Source: SAR86 cluster bacterium AG-422-P06
GTDB lineage: Bacteria > Pseudomonadota > Gammaproteobacteria > Magnimaribacterales > TMED112
DNA length: 33,001 nucleotides
Direction of reading: 5' to 3'
Assembly (NCBI GenBank): GCA_003213455.1
Contig: QCMX01000008.1
Span: forward strand, 1 to 33,001
The notes under the pieces are model-generated. The model was not told the DNA's origin. It did no database searches and saw nothing but the letters and a program-made list of their open reading frames with translations. Position numbers and translations under genes: made by a program. Positions 10,071 through 30,761 of this stretch are shown piece after piece (the first letter of the stretch is position 1; each line of letters starts with the position of its first letter).

Positions 10071-10109
10071 ACTTGATTATAACCTCTATTTCATGCAGCT
10101 AAAATGAAC

Positions 10110-10115
10110 TATAAT
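10110..10115 (+). promoter_or_regulatory. Probable sigma70 -10 box for tRNA-Ser
   Basis: Perfect TATAAT, 10 nt upstream of the tRNA 5' end. The -35 is weak and not confidently identified. Confidence 0.5.
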
Positions 10116-10125
10116 GTTGCGCTTA

Positions 10126-10216
10126 GGAGAGATGGCAGAGCGGTTGAATGCACCAGTCTTGAAAACTGGCATACGTTAATAGCGTATCGTGGGTTCGAAT
10201 CCCACTCTCTCCGCCA
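10126..10216 (+). tRNA. tRNA-Ser (anticodon UGA)
   Basis: Acceptor GGAGAGA/TCTCTCC, G discriminator and encoded CCA, anticodon stem CCAGT/ACTGG with loop CTTGAAA (TGA at 10160-10162), long class II variable arm, T-arm GTGGGTTCGAATCCCAC. Confidence 0.97.
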
Positions 10217-10223
10217 TTCATTA

Positions 10224-11807
10224 ATGAGAGCAGTAATTAAAGCTAAATTAATTTCAATAATTTGTGTTGTACTAACCTTTAATAGTCCAATTCTTGCTGA
10301 AGAGCAATCAGTTACAAAAGAAGTAGTTATATTTCATACTAATGATATAGAAAGCGTTTATGAACCTATTCAAGCCGTGTGGCGACCAGATATCGAGCTA
10401 ATTGGTGGTATTTCACATCTCACTACACTAATACGTAAGGCTCGAGCAGAAGAAGACACAAGTTTTTTAGTTGATGCCGGTGATATTTATACGGGTGCCT
10501 TATCCAAAAAATCAAAAGGTAAGCTGCCTTTTGATCTCTATAATGCTATGGGTTACGACGCCTTAAATATCGGTAATCATGAATTTGAATATAATTGGGA
10601 CGCCCTGGTAGAAATCATACCAAGAGCTAATTTTCCGGTTCTCAATGCCAATATTTTCCATGAAAAGTCAGGCAAACTTATTGCGAAACCCTACACAATT
10701 CTTGAACAATCAGGTGTGAAAATTGGTGTGATAGGCGTCATGGGTATTGATGCCTTTTACAACACTATGGCCCCATTCCATCGCATTGGCCTTAGCATTA
10801 AAGACCCGATAGAAACAGCACAATATTGGGCAGATAAAATTCGTGACGATGTAAATATGTTAATAGTCTTAACTCATCAAAACAAAACTGCTCCAATGCA
10901 GACTAACAAAGAAGCTGATCCATATGTGCAACGAGGTTTTGATGAAGATTATGAAATGGCAGGAAAATTAAGAGGTGTTGATGCTATTTTTGGCGGGCAC
11001 TCTGATAATGGTTTGCCAGAGCCAGTAATCCACCCAGATACGGGCACAGTCATAGGTTTAACTTTTGGACAAGGCATGCATCTTGGTTATACAAAATTTA
11101 GAGTGAATCTTAATGAACATGATGTAACATTTTTGGAGGGTTATTTGATTCCTGTAGATTCAAAAGCATTTCCTGCTGATCAGAAAACCTCGAAGCTGAT
11201 AAACCAATACCGTAAGCTCTATCCTGAACTCTCAGAGATCATTGCAACTATAAAGCAGCCCTCAATGCGTCTTTATAACAATGAATCTACCATTGGTAAC
11301 TTATTGACAGATATTATGCGTGATGCAGCAGGTAGTGATGTATCTTTCTTAAATTCAGGGGCTATTAGAGCCGATTTAAATTCTGGCAAGATAACTCTAG
11401 AGCATTTACTAAATGTTTATCCTTTTCCAGATAATCTCACAATCATTGAGTTATCAGGGAAACAGATCAAAAACTTAATTGAGTACAGCCTGACTCTGCC
11501 TTACGGCATAGGTCAAATTTCTGGCCTAGAAGTAAAATACAACAGCAATAAACCAGCTATGCAAAGACTTTTGAGCTTAAAGATTAATGGCAGAAACATA
11601 GTAGATTCAAATAAATATACCGTATCTACAAGTGGCTATTTAGCAAAAGGAGGGGATGGTTACACTGTTTTTACAGAGGGTAAGCTCATTAATGAAGAAC
11701 AAAGTTTTCCTGATGCGCTTTATAGAGGTTTCAAGGCAATGGGAGAAGTTAAACTGCCTTCGATTGGTAGACAAATAGATCTATCAGGTGATCTCAGCGT
11801 CAATTAA
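10224..11807 (+). CDS. 5'-nucleotidase / UshA-like metallophosphoesterase, exported
   Basis: Signal peptide MRAVIKAKLISIICVVLTFNSPILAEE; FHTNDIES, LVDAGDIYTG, NIGNHEFEYN, FGGHSDN; C-terminal NSGAIRADLNSGKITLEHLLNVYPFPDNL. The track start at 10104 lies upstream of the tRNA and translates through it. Confidence 0.9.
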   Translation: MRAVIKAKLISIICVVLTFNSPILAEEQSVTKEVVIFHTNDIESVYEPIQAVWRPDIELIGGISHLTTLIRKARAEEDTSFLVDAGDIYTGALSKKSKGKLPFDLYNAMGYDALNIGNHEFEYNWDALVEIIPRANFPVLNANIFHEKSGKLIAKPYTILEQSGVKIGVIGVMGIDAFYNTMAPFHRIGLSIKDPIETAQYWADKIRDDVNMLIVLTHQNKTAPMQTNKEADPYVQRGFDEDYEMAGKLRGVDAIFGGHSDNGLPEPVIHPDTGTVIGLTFGQGMHLGYTKFRVNLNEHDVTFLEGYLIPVDSKAFPADQKTSKLINQYRKLYPELSEIIATIKQPSMRLYNNESTIGNLLTDIMRDAAGSDVSFLNSGAIRADLNSGKITLEHLLNVYPFPDNLTIIELSGKQIKNLIEYSLTLPYGIGQISGLEVKYNSNKPAMQRLLSLKINGRNIVDSNKYTVSTSGYLAKGGDGYTVFTEGKLINEEQSFPDALYRGFKAMGEVKLPSIGRQIDLSGDLSVN

Positions 11808-13901: not shown

Positions 13902-14031
13902 ATTTTCTCCTGAAATCTTATTTAACTTATTTGATGTTTAATTTCTAATTTTCAAATATAAGTAAATTATATAACAAGCCATCTTGTCAAAAGCCTCTAA
14001 TATGGCATAGTTAAAGGAGCAGGAGATTTTT

Positions 14032-14856
14032 ATGAATTATTTAAAATTTTTAGTACTTTTCTCAGTGTTATTTTTAGCTGCATGTTCAAATGAAGCTGAA
14101 ACAACTGAAGCAGAAGTAGAAACTACTGAAACCGAAGAAGAACAAGGCCCTCCATATACTGAGTATATGACATGTACACCTGGTTCAGATTTTAATGATG
14201 CAAGTGCAAAAGCCATGATTGATGAATGGAATGACTTTGATTTTGCTGAAGGTTTCTTTTACTCAGCAGGTCATGCACCTGTTCAAAGCGCTTCACTAGG
14301 TGGAGATAATAAAGTTTATTGGCAACTATTTTGGGAATCCAAAGATGCTTCAGATGCTGGTTGGTCTGATTGGGCTACAAATGCTGAAGCTGATGCATGG
14401 AGAGCAAAACATTCATCTGTAATGGTCTGTGATGGCGAAGGCAGAAGAGGTTATGACGTTTATTTTCCACTCGGCGATGAAGCAAATTGGAATGGACCAA
14501 CTGAATGGGTCACTTATGGTCATTATTGTAAGTTTAATGATGAAAATGGGCTTGATTTGCTAAGAGAGGCTGTCGGCGCATTTAATGAATACTCTTTAGG
14601 TTCAGCCAACGAAACAACTTTTGCATACAGCGTTATGTTTCACAATGGAGAGAATCCTGAGCCATTCTCAAACTATGATTTCTTTTGGAATAATTACTAT
14701 GAAAGTCATTCAGATGCGGAACTAGCTTACCAAAGGTTTGCTGATATGGGTTCAGATATTCAAGCTATGTTTGATGCATCGGCTACATGTGAAGGGCCAA
14801 ATGCAAGCAACTCTTATCAGTTCTATCCTGATCCTGATGATGCAGATGATGCATAA
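14032..14856 (+). CDS. Lipoprotein of unknown function with internal domain duplication
   Basis: Signal peptide with lipobox LAAC (C18), acidic Glu/Thr linker, then two ~115-aa halves with matching C/FW/C/P landmarks. SD AAAGGAG upstream. Confidence 0.85.
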   Translation: MNYLKFLVLFSVLFLAACSNEAETTEAEVETTETEEEQGPPYTEYMTCTPGSDFNDASAKAMIDEWNDFDFAEGFFYSAGHAPVQSASLGGDNKVYWQLFWESKDASDAGWSDWATNAEADAWRAKHSSVMVCDGEGRRGYDVYFPLGDEANWNGPTEWVTYGHYCKFNDENGLDLLREAVGAFNEYSLGSANETTFAYSVMFHNGENPEPFSNYDFFWNNYYESHSDAELAYQRFADMGSDIQAMFDASATCEGPNASNSYQFYPDPDDADDA

Positions 14857-14870
14857 TTAGCTTAATTTCT

Positions 14871-14900
14871 AAAAAAGCCGCTTATTGCGGCTTTTTTTTT
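14871..14900 (+). terminator. Rho-independent terminator
   Basis: Perfect stem AAAAAAGCCGC / GCGGCTTTTTT with TTATT loop followed by T tract. Confidence 0.92.
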
Positions 14901-14934: not shown

Positions 14935-16302
14935 GTGGAATATTTAGATAAGCTAGCAGCAGATTTTGCCACTTGGGCCTGGGGTCCTTGGTTAGTGGCT
15001 CTTTTGCTCGGAGCAGGGGCATATTTTCTTTATTCGTCTCGATTAAGACCATTTTTATATCTTCCACATGCTTTTTCAGTTTTAGCAGGGAAACATTCAA
15101 ACGAATCAGATAAAGGCGATGTAAGCCATTTTAAAGCCCTTACTGCAGCTTTGTCAGGCACTATTGGCTTAGGTAATATTGCTGGTGTTGCGGTAGCAAT
15201 ACAGATAGGAGGTCCTGGAGCCATTTTTTGGATGTGGGTAACTGCAATTTTCGGCATAGCAACTAAATTTTTCACATGCACTCTATCAGTAATGTACAGA
15301 GAAATTGGACCTAATGGAGAAGCTAATGCAGGGCCTATGTATATCATCAAGAATGGCTTACCTAAATACATGCTTCCTTTTGCCTACTTTTTTGCAGTTT
15401 TTGGGATAATTGGTTGTTTACCATCCTTTCAAGCAAATCAACTTGTTCAGATTACAAACGATTTATATTTCGCTGATGTAGAAAATTTTAGATATATAGC
15501 AGCATCTATTCTTGTAGTGCTTACAGCATTTGTAATATTAGGGGGTTTAAAGAGGATCGCTGATGTATCAGCTTGGCTAGTACCAATAATGGCTGTTCTG
15601 TACTTTATGTCAGTATTGACTGCAATTTTATTAAATCTTGATCAACTTATTCCTGCATTCAAACTTATATTTGTGGATGCTTTTACTGGTAATGCAGTAT
15701 TAGGTGGAGGTATTGCTGGCGTTATAATTACTGGTATAAGAAGGGGAGCTTTTAGCAATGAAGCAGGCATAGGAACTGAATCATTGGTTCATGGTGCAGC
15801 AAAGACATCCAACCCTGTAAAACAAGGCCTTGTTGCAATGACAGGACCTATTTTTGACACCCTCATTATGTGCACATTAACAGCCCTTATAATTCTCATT
15901 TCTGGTGTTTGGCAATCTTCTGACAGCAGTGGTGTGACTCTTACTTCTGAAGCATTCTCAATGATACTGGGCCCAATAGGCTCTTTAATACTTTTTTTAT
16001 GTGTTGTAAGTTTTGGTATGAGCACAATCTTTACCTACTCTTATTACGGCGCTAGTTGCGCAAAATTTTTATTTGGAGAGGCTGGAAATAAAATTTACCA
16101 ATATATCTTCATACTTTTTGTAGGTGTATTTTCTATAACTTCTTTAGATTTTGCCTTGAACGTTGTTGATGGATCTTTCGCTATGATGGCAATTCCAACT
16201 CTGGTATCAACTATTTGGTTAGCTCCTAAGGTTGTAGAGAAGGCAAATGATTATTTTATGTCTCTAAAGAATCAAGATAAGACAGAATTGAATCAAGTTT
16301 AA
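14935..16302 (+). CDS. Sodium:alanine/glycine symporter (AGCS family)
   Basis: GTG start; GTIGLGNIAGVAVAIQIGGPGAIFWMWV, GIRRGAFSNEAGIGTESLVHGAAKTSNPVKQGLVAM typical of AGCS. Confidence 0.94.
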   Translation: MEYLDKLAADFATWAWGPWLVALLLGAGAYFLYSSRLRPFLYLPHAFSVLAGKHSNESDKGDVSHFKALTAALSGTIGLGNIAGVAVAIQIGGPGAIFWMWVTAIFGIATKFFTCTLSVMYREIGPNGEANAGPMYIIKNGLPKYMLPFAYFFAVFGIIGCLPSFQANQLVQITNDLYFADVENFRYIAASILVVLTAFVILGGLKRIADVSAWLVPIMAVLYFMSVLTAILLNLDQLIPAFKLIFVDAFTGNAVLGGGIAGVIITGIRRGAFSNEAGIGTESLVHGAAKTSNPVKQGLVAMTGPIFDTLIMCTLTALIILISGVWQSSDSSGVTLTSEAFSMILGPIGSLILFLCVVSFGMSTIFTYSYYGASCAKFLFGEAGNKIYQYIFILFVGVFSITSLDFALNVVDGSFAMMAIPTLVSTIWLAPKVVEKANDYFMSLKNQDKTELNQV

Positions 16303-17053
16303 GCTCACCACCAAAGTAAGCTACCTCATCTTTATCCAATCTTAATAAGCTACTTTTTAACGATTCTTTTGCCTTGCAGAAATCTCGAATGAAACTTAAT
16401 TTTTGAAATCTTACATTAATCGCAAATAAGGAATATTTTTCATTGTATCTGCACAATGTTTCTCTTTCAGAGCGTATAACCCATTCACAGACATCTCCTT
16501 TTGGAAACTCCTCTGACTTAAGGTGCATTCTTTTTGTATCACCATGAATAAACCAATTTTCCCTTTTAAATGGCTTTCCTACTGGAGCATTAGAAATAAA
16601 CCTCTCAATTGGATTTCCAATCTTTTCATTTAGCGTCTTAACTGGCTTATGGATAGCTCGCAATGGTTCTCCTATTTTCTCTTTTAAGTTCCAGTAACTT
16701 GGTGAGCAAACTGAGGCAGCCAATAGTTTTTGTTCTCCGGTTGATTCAATGATGCATAAGTCATCTGGTACAGAAAGTGACATAGAAGCTATAGGATCTT
16801 TATAAGCATCATTTGACTGTATATGCTCGGTAAGAAGTTCTTGAGCCTCTAAAGAACAATTTGTAGTTCTAACCACTGTTTCGTATGAGTTTTTAAGTAG
16901 CTCTTCTTTATATTTTATTAGCTCCTCATCAATTGAGTTATCAAACCAATCATCTATTTCAATAGGCTTTAAACCTAATCTATATTTACCTTTACCATCT
17001 GACCAAGGTGGTTTGGACCAAAATTCTAAGTTAACTACAAGCTCTTGAGACAT
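16256..17053 (-). CDS. DUF3445 family protein (heme-dependent oxidative N-demethylase alpha-subunit-like)
   Basis: CSPSYWNLKEKIGEPLRAIHKPVKTLNEKIGNPIERFISNAPVGKPFKRENWFIHGD core, RSERETLCRY…FAINVR. Confidence 0.8.
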   Translation of the reverse strand: MSQELVVNLEFWSKPPWSDGKGKYRLGLKPIEIDDWFDNSIDEELIKYKEELLKNSYETVVRTTNCSLEAQELLTEHIQSNDAYKDPIASMSLSVPDDLCIIESTGEQKLLAASVCSPSYWNLKEKIGEPLRAIHKPVKTLNEKIGNPIERFISNAPVGKPFKRENWFIHGDTKRMHLKSEEFPKGDVCEWVIRSERETLCRYNEKYSLFAINVRFQKLSFIRDFCKAKESLKSSLLRLDKDEVAYFGGELKLDSILSYLDSLET

Positions 17054-17104
17054 AATCTAATTTGTTTAATATGGAGTCTTAGCAATATTAATTCAAAAAA
17101 GAAT

Positions 17105-18391
17105 ATGAAAAAAGTAGCAGTTATAGGTGCTGGTCCATCTGGTATAACAGCAATCAAAAATCTCAAAGAAAAAGGCTTTGAAGTTATTGGTTTTGAGCGA
17201 TGTGCTGGTGTTGGAGGTAATTGGAGATATGATGACCCTTCAGGCCACTCAAGTGTATTTGAGACCACTCATATCATAAGCTCTAAATATACATCTTATT
17301 ACGAGGATTTTCCGCTTCCTAAGACAGCATCTGACTATCCTTCTCATAAAGAATTACTTAAGTACTTTAATGATTATTCAGAGCACTTTGGGATAAAAAA
17401 GCATATTCATTTCAATGCAGAAGTTATTAAATGCGAACAAGAGAATAATGGTAGATGGGTAATTGAATGGAAACATGTAAATACTGATCTAATCAATGTG
17501 CAAAAATTTGATGCTCTAGTTGTTTGTAATGGCCATCATCATGAACCAAGACTTCCAACTTACCCTGGCAGTTTTTCTGGCGAATACATCCACTCACATA
17601 GCTATAAAAAAGCTGAACCATATCGCAATAAAAGAGTTTTAGTAATTGGTGGTGGAAATTCAGCTTGTGATGTAGCAGTAGAGACATCTCGAATTTCTAA
17701 AACAACAGCCATAAGCTGGAGAAGAGGGTATTACTTGATACCAAAATTTATGTTTGGGTTAACCAGTGATATTTTTGGTTTGAAATCAAGATGGTTGCCT
17801 CGCTTCATAAGGCTACCTTTCATGCGATTTATGCTTGAGATCCTACAAGGTAAAAATGAAGATATAGGCCTACCAAAAGTTACTAATCATATACTTGCAA
17901 CACACCCTACAATAAATTCTGATTTATATAATGCTGTAAGGCATGGAAAGGTCATGCCTAAACCAGATATAGAGCGATTTGATGGTGAGTTAGTCCATTT
18001 TAAAGATGGCACAGTTGGTGAATATGATGCTGTCATTGCTTGTACGGGTTATAAGATTAAGCACAAATTCTTTGATAAGAATCTAATTAATTTTGAAAGT
18101 GGTCCGGTTAATTTACTTCATAGAATGTTGCCAGCAAATATTAAAAACCTATATTTTATTGGTCTATTTCAACCTCTGGGGTGTATATGGCCTGGTGCTG
18201 AATTGCAATCCAAACTTGCAGCTCGACACCTCGCAGGCGAATGGGAACCAAAAGGTGACATCAAGAAATTAATTGAAAATGAACTAAATAATCCAGATGT
18301 AGAGCAGCTAAAAACCGACAGACATACTATTACTGTAGATGACTACTCATTCAGGAATAGATTAAAAAAAGAATTAGCAAGAGCAAAATAA
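17105..18391 (+). CDS. Flavin-containing monooxygenase (class B FMO)
   Basis: GAGPSGI FAD motif, FSGEYIHSHSY matches FMO signature FxGxxxHxxxY (17573-17605), GGGNSACD NADP motif. Likely ATG at 17105; the track start 17045 overlaps the divergent gene. Confidence 0.9.
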   Translation: MKKVAVIGAGPSGITAIKNLKEKGFEVIGFERCAGVGGNWRYDDPSGHSSVFETTHIISSKYTSYYEDFPLPKTASDYPSHKELLKYFNDYSEHFGIKKHIHFNAEVIKCEQENNGRWVIEWKHVNTDLINVQKFDALVVCNGHHHEPRLPTYPGSFSGEYIHSHSYKKAEPYRNKRVLVIGGGNSACDVAVETSRISKTTAISWRRGYYLIPKFMFGLTSDIFGLKSRWLPRFIRLPFMRFMLEILQGKNEDIGLPKVTNHILATHPTINSDLYNAVRHGKVMPKPDIERFDGELVHFKDGTVGEYDAVIACTGYKIKHKFFDKNLINFESGPVNLLHRMLPANIKNLYFIGLFQPLGCIWPGAELQSKLAARHLAGEWEPKGDIKKLIENELNNPDVEQLKTDRHTITVDDYSFRNRLKKELARAK

Positions 18392-27379: not shown

Positions 27380-28026
27380 TATCTATTAGAAATATGCATA
27401 AAACCTACACAGATAATTCTGCTAAACAAGCAGTTTTTGAGAATGTTTCTTACGAATTTAATTCACAGGGAGTTTATAGCATTGTTGGCTCATCGGGGTC
27501 TGGAAAAACCACTTTTCTTAACCTTATATCAGGCTTAGATGCTTTTGAGAAAGGCTCTATTGAAATAGATGGAAGAAACCTAGACACATTGTCTGTTGAA
27601 GCAAAAAGCACTTTACGTAAAGCTGAATTTGGCTTTGGGTATCAGTTTCATTATTTACTAGAGAACCTAACTATTCATGAAAATTGTTTAGCAGCTTGCC
27701 ATGGACAAGACAACAGTCACATTACATCCATCCTAAAAAAACTAGGCATTTATCATATTAAGGATAAATTTCCCTCTAAAGTTTCAGGAGGTGAAAAGCA
27801 AAGAGCATCTATTGCAAGAGCATTATCAAAGAAACCAAGAATACTAATACTTGATGAACCAACTGGTAATTTAGATCAAGAAAATAGCCTTATTGTGCAA
27901 GATTTTCTTCTGAACTATGCAAGTGAAAACAAGTCACTTGTTATCTATGCTACTCATGATATTGCATTTGCTAAAAGAGCAGATAAATCTTTAAATATTG
28001 TTGAAAGAAGTATCGTAGAAAAATGA
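27376..28026 (+). CDS. lolD: Lipoprotein-releasing system ATPase LolD
   Basis: GSSGSGKTTFLN Walker A, VSGGEKQRASIARAL, ILDEPTGNLD; adjacent to LolC/E-type permease; ATGA overlap. Confidence 0.93.
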   Translation: MISIRNMHKTYTDNSAKQAVFENVSYEFNSQGVYSIVGSSGSGKTTFLNLISGLDAFEKGSIEIDGRNLDTLSVEAKSTLRKAEFGFGYQFHYLLENLTIHENCLAACHGQDNSHITSILKKLGIYHIKDKFPSKVSGGEKQRASIARALSKKPRILILDEPTGNLDQENSLIVQDFLLNYASENKSLVIYATHDIAFAKRADKSLNIVERSIVEK

Positions 28027-30761
28027 ATAAATCTATCTACACAAGACTATTAGGTTATACCTTTGAACATAAAGGTTTTTTCTTTCTAAGCATAATTGGT
28101 TTCATTCTCTTTGCAGCTGCTGATATTTCTGCGGTTGAATGGCTAAAACAAGTTATATCCTACATAAATGAAAGCAATGAAAACTCCCTTAACCCCTTAA
28201 ATCTAGCGCTATTTCTAGCTTTTATATCTGTAGTTAGAGGCATCGGTTTCTATGTAGGTAACTATTTCATGGCAAATGTTGGGCTTAAAGTAGTGCACAG
28301 CCTTAGACAGGATCTTATTTCAAGCTTGCTGTACCAGCCAATGAGTTTCTTTGATCAGGCATCGAAAGGAGAGATAGTAAATAGAATAATCTTTACCACC
28401 AATCAGATCACTGGAGCAGCAACAAATGCTCTTAAAATTCTTGTAAAAGAAGGGTTTTTGTTAATCGGTCTTTTTGTTTATCTAATGTATTTAAGTTGGA
28501 AGTTGACTTTGGTGATTCTAGTCATTGCACCCTTAATAGGAATTATTGTTTCTATAGCAGGTAAGCGTCTAAGAAGGGTAGCAAAAAAAATTCAGGATGT
28601 GATGGGAATAGTCACTCAAGTGAGTAATGAAATAGCATCTGGAGCACGTGAAATTAAATCCTTCAATAATGAAAGTGGTGAGGAAGAAAGGTTTAAAAAA
28701 GCCAACGATGAAAACCTTAAACAAAATTTGAAAATGGAAAGTACTGGGAATATAACTACTCCACTAATTCAGGTTTTTGTAGCCTTTGCTTTAGCTGCAA
28801 TGAGCTACTTGGCACTGACAAACTTAACTGAGTTAAATCTACCTTCAGAATCCTTTGTAGCATTCTTTACAGCTGCAGGTTTAATGGCTAGACCTATCAG
28901 ACAGCTTTCAAGTTTAAATGCAGTAATACAGAGAGGTTTAGCTGCTGCAGAAGATATATTCTCTGCAATTGATAATGCACCTGAGAAATACGATGAAGGG
29001 CTGGATATAAATAAGACTTTGGAAGGAGAGGTTGAAATTGAAAATGTTTCTTTTTCATACTCTCATGACTCTGATCCTGTTCTCAAGAATATATCAATCT
29101 CAGCTAAACAAGGTGAAACTATTGCTCTGGTGGGTAAGTCAGGGAGTGGTAAGTCAACGATAGTTAACCTGCTGAATAGATTCTATGACGACTACGAAGG
29201 CAGGATAAGGATTGATGGTTACGATATCAAAAAAATTAAACTAACTGACTTAAGAAACTCTATATCCTATGTCTCGCAAGACCCAACTCTATTTAATGAT
29301 ACTGTAAAAAATAATATCGCTTATGGGTTAAATGAAGTTACAGATTCAGAAGTTTTCCAAGCAGCACGAGAAGCCAATGCTTATGAATTTATTATGAATT
29401 TACCTGAGGGTTTTAACACCATTATTGGGGATAAAGGCACAACTCTTTCAGGCGGAGAAAAACAAAGAGTAGCCATTGCTAGAGCATTGTTAAAAAAATC
29501 ATCGATATTGATATTTGATGAAGCTACATCAGCACTTGATAATGAATCAGAAAAAGAAATACAAGCAGCAATTGAAAAAGCATCACAGAATAAAACCACA
29601 TTTATAATTGCTCATAGGTTAAGCACAGTAGAGAAGGCTGACAAAATATGTGTGCTAGAAAATGGTGAAATAACACAAGCAGGAACACACAATGAATTAA
29701 TCAAAGAAGAGGGCTTATATAACGTTTTACAGGGCAAGCCAGAGCTAATTGAAGAAACCAATATAACTGATGTTGAAGCTGATTTTGTACCTACATTGAT
29801 AAATGAGAAAAAGAGCTTCTGGGATGAATATAATTTTGGCAATATAGCTCTTACTCCATTGAGTTTTATTTATTGGACTATTAGTAGCTTTAAAAATACT
29901 TTTCTAAAACCAAAGACCTCTACTGGCAATGAAGTGCCCGTAGTAGTAGTAGGCAATGTCACTGTTGGGGGCAATGGTAAAACTCCTCTAGTTAGTCAGA
30001 TTGCTATCGATTTAAGAAATCTAGGTTATAAGCCAGGTATTATTCTAAGAGGCTATAAAGGCTCGTTTACAGGAACAAAGCTAATCAGTGAGGAAACCAC
30101 GTCCAAAGAAGTGGGAGATGAAGCGATATTTCACTTTAATAGGGGGTTTAATGTTGTTGTTGATAGGGATAGGGCCAGGGCACTTTCTTATTTAGAAAGA
30201 CACACTGAATGCGATATTGTTATATCAGATGATGGTCTGCAACATACAGCTTTAAGAAGAGATTTTGAAGTTATTGTTGAAGATGCAAATAGAAATTTTG
30301 GCAATCAGCTTTTCTTGCCTGCTGGACCATTGCGAGACAATATTTGGAAAACCAAAAAAGTTGATCTCTTCATTTATAGTGGCAGAAAAGATGGCAATGA
30401 TAATTTCTTTGAACTTGAACCAGAATCATGGGTCAACCTTGATACAGGAGACACATATACAGTTGATGAATATCCCTTTGGTAAAACGGCTAATGTAATA
30501 AGCGGTATAGCTAACCCGAATCGTTTCTTAAAAACACTTAACAGTCTTAAAGTTAATTTCGATTACAAACTTTTTCCAGACCATCATTATTTCAGCAAGA
30601 AGGATATAGAGTTTAACTTTGAAAGACCTATTCTAACCACTGAGAAGGATGCAGCTAGAATGGGTGAAAAATTTAAAGGATCAAATATTTGGTATCTGAA
30701 AATGGGTGTAAAACTAAACACAAATATAAGCAAACTCATAACGGAAAAAATCAATGGCTGA
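28023..30761 (+). CDS. msbA-lpxK: MsbA-LpxK fusion: lipid A ABC transporter (aa ~1-571) + tetraacyldisaccharide 4'-kinase (aa ~595-912)
   Basis: One uninterrupted 912-aa ORF. N part: TM domain plus GKSGSGKST, LSGGEKQRVAIARALL, LIFDEATSALD. C part: FWDEYNFGNIALTPLSFIYW, GNVTVGGNGKTPLV, DDGLQHTALRRDFEVIVEDA, LLPAGPLRD-type FLPAGPLRDNIW, DHHYF. Confidence 0.93.
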   Translation: MNKSIYTRLLGYTFEHKGFFFLSIIGFILFAAADISAVEWLKQVISYINESNENSLNPLNLALFLAFISVVRGIGFYVGNYFMANVGLKVVHSLRQDLISSLLYQPMSFFDQASKGEIVNRIIFTTNQITGAATNALKILVKEGFLLIGLFVYLMYLSWKLTLVILVIAPLIGIIVSIAGKRLRRVAKKIQDVMGIVTQVSNEIASGAREIKSFNNESGEEERFKKANDENLKQNLKMESTGNITTPLIQVFVAFALAAMSYLALTNLTELNLPSESFVAFFTAAGLMARPIRQLSSLNAVIQRGLAAAEDIFSAIDNAPEKYDEGLDINKTLEGEVEIENVSFSYSHDSDPVLKNISISAKQGETIALVGKSGSGKSTIVNLLNRFYDDYEGRIRIDGYDIKKIKLTDLRNSISYVSQDPTLFNDTVKNNIAYGLNEVTDSEVFQAAREANAYEFIMNLPEGFNTIIGDKGTTLSGGEKQRVAIARALLKKSSILIFDEATSALDNESEKEIQAAIEKASQNKTTFIIAHRLSTVEKADKICVLENGEITQAGTHNELIKEEGLYNVLQGKPELIEETNITDVEADFVPTLINEKKSFWDEYNFGNIALTPLSFIYWTISSFKNTFLKPKTSTGNEVPVVVVGNVTVGGNGKTPLVSQIAIDLRNLGYKPGIILRGYKGSFTGTKLISEETTSKEVGDEAIFHFNRGFNVVVDRDRARALSYLERHTECDIVISDDGLQHTALRRDFEVIVEDANRNFGNQLFLPAGPLRDNIWKTKKVDLFIYSGRKDGNDNFFELEPESWVNLDTGDTYTVDEYPFGKTANVISGIANPNRFLKTLNSLKVNFDYKLFPDHHYFSKKDIEFNFERPILTTEKDAARMGEKFKGSNIWYLKMGVKLNTNISKLITEKING

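Follow-up and report, generated by a model that had tools for sequence, protein, structure and literature searches.

A lipoprotein of the SAR86 bacteria carries, in our computational analysis, two homologous copies of one domain and four cysteines that hardly vary across a family distributed over most of the SAR86 genera. Structural modelling gives good support for assigning each copy the fold of the dimeric alpha+beta-barrel (Dabb/ABM) superfamily. We put at about one in two (0.5) the probability that this putative outer-membrane protein is a disulfide-pinned, one-chain Dabb barrel with a small molecule, probably hydrophobic or aromatic, as its ligand. The gene lies in a 33,001-nucleotide stretch of DNA (the window) from a genome of 687 kb that is 66% complete. 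SAR86 bacteria are among the most abundant in the surface ocean and a cultured isolate, HIMB1674, exists (PMC11582366).

The gene, its signals and its neighbours

The features of the gene and its immediate surroundings are as follows.

14006..14031, + strand: leader with an AGGAG Shine-Dalgarno-like sequence ahead of the ATG, TAAAGGAGCAGGAGATTTTT, read from the sequence
14032..14856, + strand: whole lipoprotein gene, an ORF of 274 aa
14032..14082, + strand: predicted signal peptide, residues 1-17, MNYLKFLVLFSVLFLAA, with the lipobox next, from the sequence
14083..14085, + strand: lipobox C18 (LAAC), followed by Ser at +2; a predicted lipidation site, with the outer membrane as the destination expected from the +2 rule
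14086..14148, + strand: acidic, Glu/Thr-rich flexible linker, residues 19-39, of a length that varies between orthologues (alignment A1)
14149..14481, + strand: Dabb-like domain 1, residues 40-150, with the predicted pair Cys48-Cys133 and conserved E44, W97, W101, P83 and D134 (AlphaFold2, Foldseek, conservation)
14494..14829, + strand: Dabb-like domain 2, residues 155-266, with the predicted pair Cys166-Cys253 and conserved D216, F217, W219 and N221 (AlphaFold2, hhalign)
14871..14897, + strand: intrinsic terminator, 11-bp stem and T tract
14935..16302, + strand: sodium:alanine symporter (AGCS), a neighbour and not part of the gene

The original prediction was drawn from the letters of the DNA and cited positions 14146-14829, a span that covers both domains; the start of the gene at 14032, the signal peptide and the lipobox lie outside it. 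It also credited the gene with a Shine-Dalgarno sequence and a terminator of its own, and we found an AGGAG motif resembling the former before the ATG and confirmed the latter at 14871-14897. The gene is monocistronic by layout, as had been proposed, because a divergent SDR gene lies upstream and the terminator downstream. A promoter-like match at 13984-14011 was no better than chance. Against four orthologues the dN/dS of the gene is 0.06-0.23, and the lipoprotein is therefore under purifying selection.

The N-terminus of the protein reads LFLAAC18-S and has the form of a type II signal peptide (MNYLKFLVLFSVLFLAAC), in which the lipobox [LVI][ASTVI][GAS]C stands behind a short hydrophobic segment. 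The lipobox pattern is present in 75 of 91 family representatives, and Ser is the commonest +2 residue among the lipobox-bearing relatives (53/75). Ser rather than Asp at +2 points to sorting to the outer membrane under a rule established in E. coli, whose validity in SAR86 we assume. The protein is thus predicted to sit at the outer membrane, which is consistent with what was claimed originally. One group of paralogues, L014-L016 from three genomes, has an N-terminal hydrophobic segment that is without the lipobox Cys.

The AGCS symporter gene adjoins the lipoprotein gene, or is one gene away from it, in all 11 same-genus loci examined. Direct adjacency of the two was not seen in the other SAR86 families, and outside the genus we found no conserved gene neighbour that points to a pathway; the adjacency was rejected as functional evidence and attributed to genus-level synteny. 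In the window, a gene resembling the alpha subunit of heme-dependent oxidative N-demethylase (PF11927; 16256-17053) lies beside an FMO-like monooxygenase gene (17045-18391), and this pair stays near the symporter gene in most same-genus loci. Elsewhere in the window, the 912-aa ORF at 28023-30761 is an MsbA-like ABC transporter fused with LpxK (tetraacyldisaccharide 4'-kinase). Of the 21 genomes of the genus, 20 have a near-full-length, single-frame match to the fusion, while the 21st (G014) has the LpxK end only, at a contig edge. The mechanically called 5'-nucleotidase ORF at 10104-11807 opens upstream of a tRNA-Ser gene (10126-10216) and runs through it, so its true start is downstream.

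Internal duplication of the lipoprotein

The 274-aa protein has Cys at positions 18, 48, 133, 166 and 253 and Trp at positions 97, 101 and 219. The original prediction argued for an ancient internal duplication from the regular spacing of Cys, Trp and Pro residues (53/53, 85/87 and 13/13), and its positions and arithmetic are right. When the halves were compared as single sequences the result was marginal against shuffles (local p = 0.037, global p = 0.006). As profiles built from 31 diverse members they were aligned by hhalign over 106 columns with a probability of 95.2% and an E-value of 2.7e-8; eight column-shuffled controls and one reversed control gave 1.3% or less. The ancient duplication is supported: as judged from sequence comparison, the homology of the two halves is secure with the family profile and weak in the single sequence.

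The profile alignment pairs Cys48 with Cys166 and Cys133 with Cys253. In the region of strand 3 it matches W97 to W219 and S103 to S225, residues that lie 122 positions apart, and the pairing of W97 and W219 agrees with the predicted strands (95-101 and 217-223). Both of these results contradict the equivalence of W101 and W219 that was originally proposed, which is wrong, and we dropped it for W97~W219. The equal 53-aa spacing from Cys to Trp in the two copies is therefore coincidental. The conclusion of duplication stands although this spacing falls as evidence.

A Dabb-type fold in each half

AlphaFold2 was given the protein with nine relatives, a shallow alignment of 10 sequences, and produced a model of the whole chain with a pTM of 0.71 and a mean pLDDT of 74, which is moderate; one of the five models stood at 37. 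Each half of the model has the ferredoxin-like order beta-alpha-beta-beta-alpha-beta, with helix 2 split in two, and the same order of elements was obtained when half 1 was folded alone (pTM 0.68). In a Foldseek search the whole protein matched 88 PDB chains at E <= 0.001, and among the 50 of these that were listed the dimeric alpha+beta-barrel proteins dominate (Dyp, Cld, SOR and ABM-type). The best whole-length match is 2PGC, whose alignment of 228 columns has TM-scores of 0.60 (query) and 0.67 (target); chlorite dismutases, Dyp peroxidases, sulfur oxygenase reductases and ABM-type proteins rank after it, and TM-scores to characterised enzymes are mostly 0.4-0.55. Half 1 alone matched, among the matches listed, proteins of the ABM, NIPSNAP, IsdG and isomerase types or structural-genomics proteins that fit this fold. 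They include ABM monooxygenases, NIPSNAP, SnoaB, RslO4 and MhuD/IsdG, together with olivetolic acid cyclase, methylmuconolactone isomerase and other isomerases and cyclases.

The modelled structure thus gives both halves the same fold, that of the dimeric alpha+beta barrels, and bears out the earlier guess at a barrel-like pseudo-dimer, with the whole protein and with half 1 alone. The two halves may pack by their sheets into a closed barrel; in this model of moderate confidence the whole chain superposes on single-chain tandem barrels (TM 0.60/0.67 for 2PGC). 2PGC presumably was once classed in a marine 'DABB' family. It is, like the lipoprotein, marine: an uncharacterised protein from a marine metagenome (JCVI_PEP_1096685590403; PDB 2007), of which one chain of about 206 residues aligns over both halves of the lipoprotein. 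The likeness is one of structure alone, as identity is 11% and family profile searches of PDB chains up to E = 10 did not return 2PGC.

Each half of the lipoprotein resembles in fold the ABM, Dabb, NIPSNAP and EthD proteins, which we take to be Pfam PF03992, PF07876, PF07978 and PF07110. Known members of this superfamily are mostly cytoplasmic homodimers without disulfides, whereas the SAR86 protein is predicted to be exported, is a tandem of two halves and has four conserved cysteines. None of these four Pfam families gave an above-threshold match to the lipoprotein, its separate halves, 31 members of its family or 14 outgroup members.

Conserved residues and predicted disulfides

Conservation was measured in the 91 representatives, which were drawn from SAR86 and the outgroup and dereplicated at 85% identity. 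The four domain cysteines are the most conserved positions, and all four are present in 89 of the 91; in the two exceptions the first Cys pair is missing together. One of these, L054, also has a residue other than Cys in the C253 column, which we attribute to local misalignment, as there is a Cys a few residues earlier. The next most conserved positions are W97 (87 of 91), E44 (80) and W101 (77), followed by F217, D216 and P83 (72 each) and W219 (66). Most of the near-invariant residues are Cys, Trp or Gly, and the representatives do not conserve the characteristic residues of any known Dabb enzyme.

In a Dabb-type fold strands 1 and 4 are adjacent in the sheet, and this adjacency fits disulfides between C48 and C133 and between C166 and C253. 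One disulfide per copy had been suggested from spacing; it is now supported, as a prediction, by the four cysteines in 89/91, by the joint loss of a pair and by the neighbouring strands. Each half probably forms one such bond.

Distribution of the family

The SAR86 order, Magnimaribacterales, comprises four families and 22 genera (PMC11582366), and our profile search covered 203 genomes from all of them. Members of the lipoprotein family were found in 162 of these genomes, in 33 of the 40 that are of high quality and in 19 of the 22 genera, with 1-4 paralogues per genome; orthologues within the genus share 41-96% identity. A class-wide scan of 369 genomes gave a single firm match outside the order, to one gammaproteobacterial family in which 33 of 61 genomes have a related protein, and a phylum-wide sample of 399 genomes added no match beyond the SAR86 order and this outgroup. 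The outgroup proteins (L079 and its relatives; alignment A5) have the same two halves and the same four cysteines and are equally unannotated. They differ in that those inspected have an ordinary signal peptide and not a lipobox, as in secreted, non-lipidated proteins. The profile of SAR86 half 2 matches that of outgroup half 1 with a probability of 98.6% (E = 1.4e-15), as expected of true repeats.

The family was not recognised in the original prediction, and the databases agree. Searches of Pfam and NCBIfam gave sub-threshold matches only, mostly of the signal-peptide type, and sequence searches of the PDB with three profiles and with single relatives gave chance matches only. Weak matches to DUF6491 and cytochrome c551 were rejected; they fall largely on the signal peptide and linker. 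The homolog search of genomes from the SAR86 order, the class and the phylum found no single-domain version, and a 146-aa candidate for one in genome G298 (L080) was rejected as a match to a lipoprotein signal peptide. Viral contigs yielded no relative. We found no description of the family in the literature, a term search of PMC11582366 included.

Several divergent proteins were noted in the course of these searches. A 261-aa ORF on the - strand in the genus of the window (L083, genome G009) is a divergent secreted relative; each of its halves aligns with domain 2 in the family profile and it has no Pfam match. In one SAR86 genus two divergent copies of the lipoprotein (L055 and L073) lie in tandem beside a photolyase-like gene. 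Directly upstream of the lipoprotein gene in genome G047, and overlapping its mechanically called start, is a gene for a secreted protein of about 245 aa (L064:3262-3999) that has the look of a tandem barrel and is without a Pfam match.

Possible roles of the lipoprotein

If the protein is a ligand-binding barrel, its lipid anchor would hold it at the outer membrane, facing the periplasm. The two tandem ferredoxin-like halves would close together to form a one-chain dimeric alpha+beta barrel in which a disulfide between strands 1 and 4 would pin each half, and in the envelope the Trp-lined barrel would bind a small compound, probably a hydrophobic or aromatic one, in a ligand-holding or ligand-modifying role. 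It is possible, if doubtful, that the protein is an exported enzyme of the ABM type, a cofactor-independent oxygenase, isomerase or cyclase with an aromatic or polyketide-like substrate in the periplasm. SnoaB, RslO4, olivetolic acid cyclase and methylmuconolactone isomerase are among the matches to half 1; W97 and E44 are near-invariant, and the site equivalent to E44 in half 2 is most often Glu (34/91). However, the protein encoded at 14032-14856 has Tyr at that site, the Foldseek matches span the whole superfamily, non-enzymes included, at TM-scores of about 0.5, and the catalytic set of no named enzyme family is conserved. Chlorite dismutases, coproheme decarboxylases and Dyp peroxidases, single chains with tandem ferredoxin-like halves, are among the best whole-length Foldseek matches and have good E-values, a resemblance that favours an envelope heme protein of their kind. 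Such a protein would need a proximal His, but the best His column has this residue in just 32 of the 91 representatives, other His positions are lower, and H81, H164 and H204 are kept only in the genus-level clade. The lipoprotein also differs from these enzymes in its predicted export and in TM-scores of about 0.4-0.5. Because no His is conserved we rejected the heme reading, which is highly improbable.

It is also conceivable that the barrel has been reused for protein binding and that the lipoprotein is a structural or assembly factor of the outer membrane, one that binds no small ligand and serves a porin or TonB receptor as scaffold or partner. Partnership with a membrane complex is common among small outer-membrane lipoproteins, and the lipid anchor, the long acidic linker and the 1-4 paralogues per genome suit such a role. 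The near-invariant Cys, Trp and Gly residues may simply be structural, and a ligand may be absent. This explanation is nonetheless unlikely: a conserved genomic partner is absent across the SAR86 families, and the conserved strand Trp, Glu and Asp would need another explanation.

Our findings place the Dabb/ABM fold in a protein that has four conserved cysteines and is predicted to be exported and held by a lipid anchor. With a fold assigned and its conserved residues defined, what was an anonymous 'hypothetical lipoprotein' becomes open to experiment. The streamlined SAR86 genomes keep the family in four cases out of five, with up to four copies, and for this reason it is probably needed by the cells. 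A bolder proposal, which we regard as quite a long shot, is that an envelope family found throughout SAR86 acts at the outer membrane to capture hydrophobic or aromatic compounds and to oxidise or isomerise them in a cofactor-free, disulfide-stapled, single-chain Dabb barrel. If this were true, the family would feed the lipid and aromatic catabolism of SAR86.
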